In this document: one piece after another, positions 28,952-42,614 of the stretch | Position numbering within the stretch: the stretch's first letter is position 1 | How the letters are laid out: each line of letters starts with the position of its first letter | DNA from: Morchella semilibera | Taxonomy: Eukaryota > Ascomycota > Pezizomycetes > Pezizales > Morchellaceae | Direction of reading: 5' to 3' | Assembly (NCBI GenBank): GCA_009192285.1 | Contig: CM018606.1 | Coordinates: 1,044,081 to 1,108,080, forward strand | DNA length: 64,000 nucleotides | The notes under the pieces: generated by a model | What the model saw: the letters and a program-made list of their open reading frames with translations, nothing else | Told to the model about the DNA's origin: nothing | Database searches by the model: none | Translations under genes and position numbers: made by a program

Positions 28952-29646
28952 TTGTCTTAGTAGATATGTTAATCTAAGTAATTGGGATGAAGTAGGTGAG
29001 GGGAAATAGGTACAACGAGGAGAGAAATAACGCAACAGGTATTATTCGATATTCAGTGTTAAGTACTCGAATGCGTATGACCAGAATCCTGGAAAGATGA
29101 TTGGTCCAGTGGTATTCTCATAGGCTATGTTTCGCAGAAAACAAATGCTGCTCAATCCAAAGGTTACATGTACCTACATGTAGTTAGGTGGATGTCCATA
29201 CATGTATCTTTTCCCCACAAATTCGCCCAATGTGCTACATGTTTAACTCCACCCCCATGTGCCACATGCGTACATGTACCATACCGTACATTTACGGGTA
29301 TTCATGATACATGGGGTAGGGTACGTATGGCCATGTGAGTTTACCCATTTGTATGTAGTAGGTACCGGTACATTCCTCAATGCCGGGTATCCGTTGCGAA
29401 CCCCGCAATTCGTCCCAAACTTCTAGAAGGCGGTTCAAAGGGTTTCGATCGAAATGGTGCGTAATGCATAAATACATGAAATTTCCAACGTCTCTAGAAT
29501 GATGCAGGAATTAAATAAGTGGATACTTAGCTACTATGAATGAAATCTAATTCTTATGGGAGCAAAAGATATAATCTTGGTGTAAGTGGTACAATATAAA
29601 GGCATAATCATGTACCTACATACATATGGCTTAAGTACAGTACTTA

Positions 29647-29677
29647 GGGCCTGTTTGGAAACAGGCCAAACGGGCCC
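29647..29677. repeat. Short GGGCC-ended hairpin flanked by TTA
   Basis: GGGCCTGTTTGG and CCAAACGGGCCC are near-perfect inverted copies around a 7-base centre, with TTA directly on both sides, as if left by a small transposon-like insertion with a 3-bp target duplication. Confidence 0.5.
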
Positions 29678-30380
29678 TTACTAATTTATGTACTCTACTT
29701 GCGGTATTTTACCACCGGCGGTGAAAATGATACCAGCATTTATACCTTAAAATGGATAAGAGCACAGACCTTTGGCCAAAAGGAGCTATATAATGCCAAT
29801 ATATGAGTTCTGTTGTCCACCGGTGGGAAACATTCACTAATGAAGTATATATAGCACAGCATAAAGACCGATATTCAGTGTTTATACTGGCACAGGCAGG
29901 GGATAAAACCGTCTTCGAAAATGCTGTAGGACTAGAGTCTTTTTGCCATCGGCGGGCGGGGGGTTGTCTGTTCCCAAGACTTTCAAGTAAGATGTGATAA
30001 TATTTTCGACAGAGGCTAACGCATGCGGCATTGTCTCGTTGCCTTTCGCACCTGTGGCTAAAGGTCTCTACTGTGGTACTAGTACTGGTGTACCCAGGGT
30101 GTCAGAAAGTGATGCACATTCGGTGGTTTCATAGCCACACGGGAATCAATTTCCGCACTAGGCTATTTCAAGGTAAATATAAGTGTGCAGACACTCTTCA
30201 TCAAGTACATGTATATGCTTAGTACTTAGGTATGGTAGAGAGGTTCTGTACGATTTTGTTGTATTGTGTAAGGTGCATCACTTTCCAATACTTTGTTAAT
30301 TAGAACTCGGAGATCAGTACTTACATGTATTCACTTACTTACGTTCGTATAACTACATGTATATGTACATGTAGACCCAT

Positions 30381-30460
30381 TATGGTATGCCGAACATGTT
30401 CAACGTCGAGATTGAGTGTACTTTAATTCGACATTCCCCCATGTTCGGCATACCCCCATA
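30381..30460. mobile_element. 80-bp inverted-repeat element
   Basis: The ends share GTATGCCGAACATG in inverted orientation (30385 on; complement near 30440-30453). TA lies at both outer borders. Too short to code; possible MITE or its excision-prone remnant. Confidence 0.5.
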
Positions 30461-30682
30461 AGTGAGTCTATTGAAAGTGGTGCAACGAGCTCAATACTGG
30501 TGTCGCGACTATTATCGAGGCTAGACCTACAAGTACTCTACATGTAGTTAACGTTTTCTATTTCCAGGTACTATATAGCTCTGTCTGATGCAACTCGATC
30601 TATATGAATCATACAGATCTCCAACCTTTGGGCACGGTGGCCAGTCGCTGCGAAATTGTCGCCGTTGCACCCCGAGTAGGTA

Positions 30683-30835
30683 CAGTCGCAACTCGATATT
30701 CCGGATCTCAATACTCCGGATCCCTTGCTGTCCCGTACGAAATCCTCCGCGGAATCAATTTGCTATCCCGGATTTTTTGCTATTCTGTACGAAATCCTTA
30801 TAATCTTGGCAATCCGGCATATCGAGTTGCGACTG
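30683..30835. mobile_element. 153-bp MITE with 24-bp terminal inverted repeats
   Basis: The left end starts CAGTCGCAACTCGATATTCC and the right end is its complement, with about 23 of 24 positions matching. The left flank is TA and the right flank TT (a decayed TA duplication would fit). The CAGT...CTCGATAT end is typical of pogo/Fot1-like Tc1-mariner elements (from memory). Inside are two related copies of TGT(A/C)CGAAATCC-like sequence. Non-coding. Confidence 0.75.
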
Positions 30836-31611
30836 TTGACCTGGTACATGAGGTACAACAGTTCCTTTGATCACCTAATTAACCACATCAGGAAGGTATG
30901 ATGAGAGAAACTCTCTAGATAGATACATGTACATACATGTAGTTCTTATGAACTGCACGCGGTATAGTACATGTAAACATCTCTACATCCCTACTTACAT
31001 GTACATGTATGCTCTAATAGCCTACATACAAAGTACATGTACCGTAGATACTCGCTAGCGCCGTTTGCACAAAAAGTACATGTACATGTATGTACATACA
31101 TGTACTCAACAACGCTAGCGAATTAATCGTGGCCAGGCGATACAACACACTTTCCATCACAACACACTTTCACTGTGTAGAGTATGCATCAATAAGTGGC
31201 GACGACACCGGATACCTTAAGACCAAAATCTTTACTTTTCCGATCTGAGACAATGAAGGAACTTACTTCTGCTATTCTGCAAGTTATTTCCTCTCCATAT
31301 GCTATATCGCTAAAGGTCTGAGTTGTTGAGAGTATTGGAGTCACATACAATCCCACCGTCTTACTGACAAGAGCTTTTCAGAACCTGGACTCGGTTATTC
31401 GATCTACCTCAAAAATAAATCTTTACAGATGGGCCGATTCGAACCCATGTCAAATTTCCGCACTTGCTGGTGCTATTATCAGCGCACTTGAGTTTTGTCC
31501 ATATGCGCTCCACGTAGTCGAAGAATTTGGTAGTGCCCTATTGAAAGTTTATTGCACCTAGACACAGGTAACTAAAAACCTCTAGGGCGCATTACTGCCG
31601 TGCGGGACGCA

Positions 31612-38400: not shown

Positions 38401-40917
38401 CCAATCAGCCGTCCATGCTCAGTTCGTTGTGTGCTCTCTCCACGGGAAAAGCTACTCTAATTAATTTTATTTTTTAGCTGCGCTAACTATCATAGCTACC
38501 ACTCGTGCTATTCGTGGTGTCCAGGTTGATGTTGTGGGTATCCCTGACATCGTGTACCCCGATAACGAATATAATTTTTCAGACGGTGTTGGTAAAATTT
38601 CAGAGTTTCTAGCAACCCTCATTTCCATGGAACTCAAGTTAAAAGAACAACCTCCACCATCCTGCTTTCAATTTCGGCTTGGCGGCTGCAAAGGTGTTTT
38701 AACTGTGTGGCCTGATGCTAAACAAAGAGAGGTCTGTATCCGCCCTAGCCAGGAGAAGTTCAAAGCCAAACACAAAATCCTCGAGGTAATTCGTTGGTCA
38801 GCCCCCGCAACCGCATGCCTTAATAGACAACTTATCATAGTCCTATCATCACTTGGGGCGGAAGACCACGTGTTTAGAGCTAAACTAGAGGATACATTGA
38901 ATAAATATGCGGATGCTATGGTTAAGCCCGCAGCTGCGAGTTACCTGCTTCACAGAGCTATTGATGCAAACCAATTCACCTTGGATCTTGCAGCCATGGT
39001 CCGCAACGGCTTCATGGAAATCCGAGAACCTTTTGTGGTTTCTCTTCTTAGCCTCTGGCGGTCTTGGTCAATTAAATATCTCAAGGAAAAGGCAAGGATA
39101 ATGATTGAGAACGGGGCTTTTGTTCTTGGTGTGGTTGACGAAACAGGGATTCTAGAAGGGCACTACGATGAAGAGGAGGGGGAGGATGAGGAGGAAGAGG
39201 AAGAGGGGAAAGGGGAGAAGAGTGAAGGGGAGAAGGGGAGGAAGAGGGATGAGGGCGAGAAAGATGGAGGTCATGGCGGCGATCGTGAAAGGAGAAAAGA
39301 ACCAACCCCTCCTGTTATGCCAGAGATATTTCTACAAGTCAGCGATCCGGAAACGGGCCAGTTTAGGGTGATCGAAGGCTTATGTCTTGTTGCGCGTAAC
39401 CCTTCTCTTCACCCTGGCGATATTCGGACTGTACGCGCTGTTGATGTTCCGGAACTGCGGCACCTCCGCAACGTTGTTGTATTTCCTAGCAAAGGGGATC
39501 GTGACCTTGCGAGCATGTTATCTGGTGGTGATTTGGATGGAGATGACTATATAGTTATCTGGGATAAAGATTTGACGAGAGGGATCACAAATTACCCACC
39601 AATGGACTACTTACCAATGGAACCTAGGGAACTGTCTCGTGACGTCGAAATAAACGATATCACGAAGTTTTTTGTTAATTATATGAAGAACGACAAGCTT
39701 GGAGCTATCGCAAATTCTCATCTGGCCTGGGCAGACTACCTTGACGAAGGAGTAAAATCCTCTAATTGTAGGTCTATTATGCCCCGTTTATTCTTTGAGC
39801 TAGTGCGTGTTAACATTGAATAGGCCTGGCTCTTGCTGCCCTGCACTCCGATGCTGTGGACTATGTTAAGACTGGAGTACCGGCAGAAATGCCTCGTAGT
39901 CTAAGAATCAGAAAGTATCCTCATTTTATGGAAAAGGAAAGGGAGAAGAGCTATACTTCTCATAAAATTCTTGGACAGCTCTACGACATGGTGGAGAGGA
40001 TAGACTTTATACCATCTTACGAGCTCCCATTCGATGAGCGCATACTCAATGCTTATACTCTCGATGAGGATGATCTATCAGCAGCAAGGGAGTTGAAAAG
40101 CGATTACGATGCGGCATTGCATAGTATTATGGCCCAGCATGAAATATATACAGAGTTTGAAGTAATTTCGACCTTTGTCATGCACCATTCTCAGGCTGCG
40201 GGGGACTACAAATTCCACGAGGAAATTGGGAGTATTCGTGGTGGCCTAAGGGAAATCTGGCAAAAGGCTGTTATACACCGAGTCGGTAGTAGCGACGAAT
40301 TGGAGCTGGGACCATTTGTTGTGGCTATGTACACAGTGGCCAAACAGGAATTGGATGCGGGATTGGAGAGCCTAAAAGCAAAAAAGGCCAAAGGAAAGAA
40401 ACGTGAACGCCCTGTTGAAGGGGAGCCTCTAAAGTTCACCCCCGAGGACGTGAAAGCGATGCCGCTCATCTCTTTCCCATGGCTGTTTCCGGAAATTTTA
40501 GGAAAAATTGCCAACCGCGAATATCCTTTTAATATTAATTCACCTGATGAAAGTCTGGGGCAAGTCGGACGTTACCCTGTCTCGGAAATTGAACGCTACA
40601 CGCCCAGCACACACGAGGGCACCTCCAACCAACTTAATACAGCTGCAGACAATCTTGCCGGTTATGAAATAGTGCCGGTGCAGGAGGGTCTAGAAAACAG
40701 CAGCGCCTACACATACTTCGACTACAATGCACAATCCGACGAGGGCGAAACCAACGGATATGACGCCAATACCAAGGATCATAGCAACGGCCATACTTCC
40801 GATAGTGACGGGAGTGATTCCTCTGGTATTTTCCAAAGGTTCAATGATATCGACGGTCCCGACGGTATTGATAGCGAGACCTTTGAAAATATATCCCTCG
40901 ACGAGCTGCCTTTCTAA
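35487..40917 (+). CDS. Eukaryotic RNA-dependent RNA polymerase (RNA silencing), six exons
   Basis: Exons 35487-36569, 36629-37157, 37213-37811, 37864-38122, 38496-39767, 39824-40917; phases close on 1611 residues. It makes double-stranded RNA from aberrant single-stranded transcripts for Dicer. Seen: a disordered Pro-rich N-terminus (proline run near 35635), an RRM-like segment (INIQLRNLPVGYTTLHVYER), then RdRP blocks DTGRWTTYRFQFE, FEFLAFGNSQIREHG, IREWMGKFTSIRVVAKHAAR, GQCFSTTRAIRG, DGVGKIS and the catalytic loop GGDLDGDDYIVIWD (metal-binding Asp about residues 1169-1173). An acidic/basic low-complexity insert (about 39165-39305) interrupts the core. The RRM-like N-terminus suggests the Rdp1/SAD-1 side of the family more than QDE-1, not certain. 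Intron 4 is 373 nt and contains an inverted-repeat element. Confidence 0.93.
38147..38451. mobile_element. Inverted-repeat element (about 305 bp) inside RdRP intron 4
   Basis: GGAGAGAGCACAC at 38157-38169 has a perfect inverted copy at 38429-38441. The match extends outward with CTTTTCC / GGAAAAG (about 20 of 23 positions). TA lies a few bases outside each end. An internal perfect 9-bp hairpin (CTAAGAACT...AGTTCTTAG) lies near 38357. Non-coding, so a non-autonomous element. Confidence 0.7.
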
Positions 40918-41530: not shown

Positions 41531-42614
41531 TTAACCATGAACCTTGGTGAAATATTCCTTCGAATCTTTCGGATTGGCTTTGATTGTCTCGGAACCAGTA
41601 TTCCAGTTGGCAGGGCATACCTCACCGTACTTTGTAACTTCATCAGTCTTTTGATTTAAATTTAGTAGCTGATGAAACATACCTTCTCTGTAAATTGGAA
41701 AGCATCGACTAAACGGATCGTCTCATCAACTGAGCGGCCAACGGGGAGATCATTAATAGTAATCTAGCGAAAATGGTAAAATGTAAATAAAAGCTCAATC
41801 GATACCCATCCGAACTTCTCATGTCGGGATATCTGTACCTGGCGGATAGTTCCTTTGGGATCAATGATAAAAAGACCACGAAGAGCAACACCCTCCTCTT
41901 CAATCAAAACACCATAATCCTTTGCTAGTTTATGGTTCTTGTCGCTGTAAAGAGGAATATTAACACTTCCTAAACCCCCATCCTTGCGAGCTGTTGAGGC
42001 CCACGAGAGAAGACTACAGCACTTATCATCAGTAACCTAATTATGATTGCACAGAGATCTCCGACAACAGTACCTATATTCAGAATCCACTGAAGCAAAG
42101 ACAACGGAGGCCCCCCGTTCAGCGAATTGCTTCGCGGCGTCTGAGAATGCGATTATCTATTGTGGATGTGTCAGTTCGGCGAATAGTGTGTAGTCTTGAT
42201 CTGAATTGATCAAGTAGATCAGTAAAGTGGAAATGGGATTGGTCAACCTCAGTAGGGCTGCATGTTAAGGCGGCCACAAGTCAGTTTGGTTCGGTAAATG
42301 CTTTTTTCAAGGCGGGAATGTAACAGCTGAGGTCTTACCAAACAAATGTCCATGCCATGGGGATAAAGGCTAGAACGAGCCATTTGCCCTTGTAATCATC
42401 AAGCGAGATTTCTAGACCCCATAGATAATATTTAGTATACACCTGCTTGAGCTGAAAAGAGCATGAAGGTAATAATAAAGTGCTGTTTAAGATAGGGCTA
42501 GCGAAAGGGTGCTTAAGCTCCTTAGATGTAGATGATTGGCTGACCTTCGAATGTTCCGTTGACAACGGCAGTTCCTTTGAAAGAAGGTGCAGGATGCTGG
42601 ACGCGGGCAACCAT
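41531..42614 (-). CDS. TSA1: Typical 2-Cys peroxiredoxin (Tsa1-like), seven exons including a 10-nt exon
   Basis: Complement of 42545-42614, 42339-42411, 42248-42257, 42074-42156, 41839-42013, 41683-41763, 41531-41629; phases close on 196 residues, the normal length. Reduces peroxides with thioredoxin. Seen: [42 protein letters not shown] with peroxidatic Cys48, [41 protein letters not shown], and EVCPANW with resolving Cys169. The Cys48 codon TG/C is split by an intron. Its last base plus Pro-Thr-Glu form a separate exon of only ten bases. For the last intron I used the AAG acceptor that gives 53 nt; the alternative leaves 35 nt. Confidence 0.92.

Follow-up and report, generated by a model that had tools for sequence, protein, structure and literature searches.

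A ten-base exon predicted to complete the peroxidatic cysteine motif of a Tsa1-type peroxiredoxin gene in Morchella semilibera

The peroxiredoxin gene and its surroundings

The window analyzed here is a 64,000-nucleotide stretch of Morchella semilibera contig CM018606.1. A seven-exon gene lies on its minus strand at positions 42614 to 41531, and the joined frame encodes 196 residues followed by a stop codon. All six introns are GT-AG, with matching phases and lengths of 53 to 133 nt. Exon 1 (42545..42614, 70 nt) extends from the start codon through TTC GAA G and is separated by intron 1 (42412..42544, 133 nt, GTCAGC...TCTAG) from exon 2 (42339..42411, 73 nt), whose 3' end reads TTT GTT TG, the terminal TG beginning the Cys48 codon. 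Intron 2 (42258..42338, 81 nt), with the donor TTG/GTAAGA and the acceptor GCAG, leads to exon 3, a microexon of only 10 nt (CCCTACTGAG, 42248..42257) that comprises the last base of Cys48 and the codons of Pro49, Thr50, and Glu51. It is followed by intron 3 (42157..42247, 91 nt; donor GAG/GTTGAC, acceptor ATAG) and by exon 4 (42074..42156, 83 nt), which contains AFSDAAKQF. The remainder of the gene consists of intron 4 (42014..42073, 60 nt), exon 5 (41839..42013, 175 nt) with the GGLG motif, intron 5 (41764..41838, 75 nt), exon 6 (41683..41763, 81 nt), intron 6 (41630..41682, 53 nt), and exon 7 (41531..41629, 99 nt including the stop codon), which contains Cys169 and the YF motif. Exons 1 to 6 were obtained both by exon joining and by spliced alignment; in exon 7, the spliced alignment stops at 41549.

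Part of an RNA-dependent RNA polymerase (RdRP) gene is found downstream of the peroxiredoxin gene, on the plus strand at 38465-40917, so that the two genes converge. Two adjoining frames match Pfam RdRP (437 and 58 bits), and among the proteins of known structure, RDR2 is a relative, as is, with a weaker match, QDE-1. Elsewhere in the window, many short ACATGTA/TACATGT words were seen by eye at 29000-31200, and stop-to-stop frames that reach 180 aa are absent between 25901 and 31576.

The predicted product of the seven-exon gene is a typical 2-Cys peroxiredoxin of the AhpC/Prx1 family and of the Tsa1 kind. Pfam and solved-structure searches, for which the protein query had one Glu missing, returned AhpC-TSA at 129 bits and 1-cysPrx_C at 44.6 bits, both above the curated cutoffs, and yeast Tsa1 (PDB 3sbc) as the best solved relative, with an E value of 1.3e-86 and with Tsa2 in second place. 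These two yeast proteins (PDB 3sbc and 6utl) are the closest solved relatives across almost the entire protein. When the frame is read through the microexon, the peroxidatic cysteine fits the pattern PxxxTxxCP (P41, T45, C48, and P49), while the resolving cysteine is Cys169 in EVCPANW, the C-terminal VCP. GGLG at residue 91 and YF at residue 190 are both intact; together, these motifs are the mark of the eukaryotic, peroxide-sensitive form. Unlike the gene described here, with its six introns, the yeast Tsa1 and Tsa2 genes are intronless.

No second Tsa1-type gene was found in genome searches that proceeded exon by exon and in which only the best candidates were scored. Eight matches were obtained, six of which are the peroxiredoxin gene itself, while the other two fall in other peroxiredoxin loci (32% and 43% identity). 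The other AhpC-TSA loci found in the genome number three in all. Matches on contigs C9/C10 and C12/C13 recur at near-equal coordinates and with equal scores, as if two chromosomes were present twice in the assembly; the window's own contig, C4, has no doubled partner among the matches seen. The 56.8-Mb genome size, the intron style, and the way beta-tubulin is divided into exons point to a fungus, probably a filamentous ascomycete; an ITS2/5.8S pattern of ascomycetes was unmatched at up to 3 mismatches.

Evidence for the ten-base exon

An earlier note on this DNA had proposed that a 10-nt exon, with AG before it and GT after it, provides the only in-frame route to the invariant CPTE motif and that the Cys48 codon is split TG/C over the preceding intron. 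We found the junctions (42339 to 42257 and 42248 to 42156) and the split codon to be exactly as proposed. To examine the route itself, all chains between an anchor in exon 2 and AFSDAAKQF in exon 4 were listed, with up to three introns of at least 35 nt, GT or GC donors, and AG acceptors. This gave 105 chains, all of them with zero to two introns; no three-intron chain fits. Only two are open, and the proposed chain is the one that encodes CPTE. Among the 50 chains with a single intron, one is open, and its intron is the 187-nt segment 42343-42157 (GTTTGG...ATAG). The further description of the exon as the carrier of the peroxidatic cysteine region applies to Pro-Thr-Glu and the last base of the cysteine codon, but the TG is supplied by exon 2. 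With a length of 10 nt, an internal position, and AG and GT on its two sides, the exon lies within the limits for a microexon (at most 30 nt, internal, with splice sites on both sides).

Spliced alignment is a separate method, in which the aligner is given nothing but the GT-AG rule and BLOSUM62. With yeast Tsa2 as the guide, it recovered these seven exons under each of four intron penalties. When the microexon splice sites were broken, the best local alignment score dropped from 198 to 158, by way of the 187-nt-intron route. Of the 182 nt between exons 2 and 4, the inner 149 were shuffled, and a score of 198 was reached in none of 1500 dinucleotide shuffles (best, 193) and in none of 6000 mononucleotide shuffles (best, 190). 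The pattern AG-C-CCN-ACN-GAR-GT, which is expected 0.04 times per 64 kb on both strands, was found once, at the microexon, and is present in 4 of 100 shuffles.

Conservation of the motif was assessed with the 58-aa exon 5 as the query against genome contigs, which gave at least 596 pattern matches and at least 357 relatives, the best 80 of which were kept. When each match was extended upstream in its own frame, the site proved to be CPTEI in 80/80 of these best relatives, a narrow sample with bacterial titles, nearly all of them Bacillota. A stricter pattern located the site in 57 of the 80, and it is CPTEI in all 57. The same exon 5 query against viral contigs produced 81 pattern matches and no relative. 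From this protein conservation, we infer that the microexon is included in the mRNA.

These results bear on two ways of dismissing the exon. The ten bases might be a chance match within one longer intron, the protein then lacking CPTE, and the 187-nt intron does stay open. However, the plain 182-nt join yields TGA rather than an open frame, the protein would lose a catalytic motif that all 80 relatives retain, the alignment score falls once the microexon splice sites are broken, and the pattern itself is rarely expected, all of which makes a chance match extremely improbable. It is equally hard to believe that the gene is a decaying pseudogene in which the arrangement is unused. Some of its donors are weak, as decay might suggest, but all 196 codons are open, the six GT-AG introns agree in phase, both catalytic cysteines, GGLG, and YF are intact, and no other Tsa1-type copy was found in the genome.

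Short internal exons are also present elsewhere in the same genome. Of the 46 internal exons of 14 conserved genes, 7 are convincing short exons of 16 to 33 nt, namely, those of calmodulin (16 nt), actin (17 and 31 nt), beta-tubulin (24 and 26 nt), a Rho1-type gene (28 nt), and a Cdc42-type gene (33 nt). These genes were modeled on protein templates, and the set comprises 14 of 39 distinct models, the other 25 having been excluded at less than 55% identity to the template; the proteasome loci L086-L115 lie outside the aligned set. In all, the aligner called nine internal exons no longer than 36 nt, and two of them, of 5 nt (L133) and 9 nt (L135), were dropped for weak support. The 16-nt exon of calmodulin apparently carries DKDGDG of the first EF-hand loop, and the 17-nt exon of actin apparently carries LVIDNG. 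In 488 of 1500 shuffles, the aligner inserts a middle exon no longer than 25 nt, which leaves less certainty about short exons in the other genes than about the peroxiredoxin microexon. The score margins of the actin and calmodulin exons (21 to 22) have counterparts in 203 of 6000 shuffles; since such margins and tiny exons recur in shuffles, these two exons rest also on 6/6 identical residues.

Splicing of the microexon and its possible errors

Both introns that flank the microexon are short, and each contains a branch-like CTGAC motif, which starts 27 nt before the end of intron 2 and 18 nt before the end of intron 3. Donor strength was ranked against 48 introns of conserved genes from the same genome, 11 of 59 introns having been dropped for weak local identity. 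The ranking is rough, because the reference retains a few doubtful introns (e.g., the 346-nt intron of L133 next to the exon that was dropped). On it, the donor of intron 2 outscores 37 of the 48 reference donors, while that of intron 3 is weak and outscores only 2. Its weakness could mean inefficient splicing. Because the donors of introns 4 and 5 likewise outscore only 2/48 (introns 3 to 5 occupy window 42247-41764 on the minus strand), a weak donor is not special to the microexon.

Very probably, the locus holds a Tsa1-type gene, the sole copy found, in which a constitutive 10-nt exon between short introns completes CPTE and is spliced by intron definition with sequential intron removal. 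The microexon is most likely constitutive. Under intron definition, the splice sites would be paired across each short intron, so that the exon would need no recognition of its own. Since splicing complexes cannot occupy both sides of a 10-nt exon simultaneously, the two introns would have to be removed sequentially, with intron 2 and its strong donor probably going first and intron 3 and its weak donor second. The special spliceosome handling that the earlier note had expected may amount to nothing beyond this sequential removal of two introns. Sequential intron removal has been proposed for a single-nucleotide exon of Arabidopsis (PMC4674806), and in Trichoderma reesei, intron 1 beside a microexon is reported to be retained in some transcripts (PMC11121469).

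The consequences of mis-splicing can be read from the gene model. A direct join of exon 2 to exon 4 combines TG with ATA and creates TGA at codon 48. If intron 2 is kept, the frame continues with Trp and then TAA; if intron 3 is kept, CPTE is present and is followed by 42 further residues and a stop. A GT that lies 5 bases before the normal donor, at 42343, is predicted, together with the acceptor of intron 3, to define a possible alternative intron (42157..42343, minus strand, 187 nt) that would remove VCPTE in frame and leave an open 191-aa protein. The expectation that skipping shifts the frame and eliminates the catalytic site thus holds for the plain exon 2-4 join, but not in full for the 187-nt in-frame skip, which stays open. 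Skipping is in any case doubtful as a failure mode. Both introns are of a length (81 and 91 nt) that suits intron definition, so retention of the downstream intron, rather than skipping, is expected, and given the short introns and the weak intron 3 donor, intron 3 retention seems the likelier error. Errors at this locus would accordingly be expected to consist mostly of intron 3 retention, which would give a truncated product or mRNA decay.

It is unlikely that the arrangement is a regulated switch, in which conditional intron 3 retention or exon skipping sets the enzyme dose or the share of dead subunits. Ten nucleotides are not a multiple of three, and the frame is lost on a plain skip or when either intron is kept; the donor at 42343 would offer an in-frame protein without VCPTE, and the donor of intron 3 is weak. 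The 1 kb upstream of the gene contains three AGGGG/CCCCT stress-element-like words, which are short enough to occur by chance, and a precedent exists in the glucose-dependent 20-nt microexon reported for Xlr2 of Trichoderma (PMC11121469). Against such a switch, short internal exons are also found in housekeeping genes of this genome, introns 4 and 5 share the weak donors, and AP-1-like and heat-shock patterns are unmatched in the same 1 kb, although the last point is weak evidence. The earlier suggestion that enzyme dose follows directly from splicing efficiency is speculative and has a low prior probability. Quite improbable, too, is the proposal that the sole Tsa1-type gene found serves as a splicing sensor, either because removal of intron 3, with its weak donor, is limiting or because the 187-nt intron yields dead subunits. 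If this were true, stress that alters spliceosome capacity would, by way of intron retention, determine how much active enzyme is made; by the 187-nt intron, catalytically dead subunits lacking VCPTE would be mixed into the decamer.

Annotation and comparison with known microexons

At this locus, annotation of the active site depends entirely on ten bases. A gene predictor that misses the microexon would output either a disrupted gene or a protein that is in frame but lacks CPTE, and no second Tsa1-type copy was found in the genome search. That microexons are often missed in annotation, as had been claimed for exons of this size, finds support in two published studies (PMC12940212 and PMC8831610). 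The locus also constitutes a compact natural test of the fungal spliceosome on two introns that lie 10 nt apart. Among the papers listed in literature searches, judged on titles and the openings of abstracts, no description of a peroxiredoxin microexon was found, and, judged by title, nothing useful was found on the gene structure of fungal thioredoxin peroxidases. Tiny fungal exons are already known, and the peroxiredoxin microexon is a new example of them.

The cgs2 gene of Schizosaccharomyces pombe likewise has a microexon under intron definition. Romfo et al., in 2000, are said to have tested its splicing experimentally, and the exon reportedly could not be made to skip, the downstream intron being retained instead. 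The cgs2 case comes from experiment, whereas the peroxiredoxin case comes from sequence only.

Filamentous fungi provide further parallels. The CYP621A P450 genes of Fusarium are reported to contain a 1-nt exon (PMC12940212). As in the peroxiredoxin gene, this is a tiny internal exon of a filamentous fungus that completes a conserved motif and was found through frame and homology; it differs in its length (1 versus 10 nt), in the protein family, and in the 20 orthologues and SRA reads given for it in that account. Trichoderma Xlr2 offers another filamentous-fungus microexon that completes a functional domain, but that exon is 20 nt long and is reported to vary with glucose (PMC11121469), while the peroxiredoxin exon is probably constitutive. 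Small exons, the shortest of 6 bp, occur together with small introns in the P450 genes of Phanerochaete chrysosporium (PMC1184071), much as in the gene described here. Those P450s, however, form a multigene family of a basidiomycete, in contrast to a peroxiredoxin gene that, as far as the genome search extended, stands as a single Tsa1-type copy.
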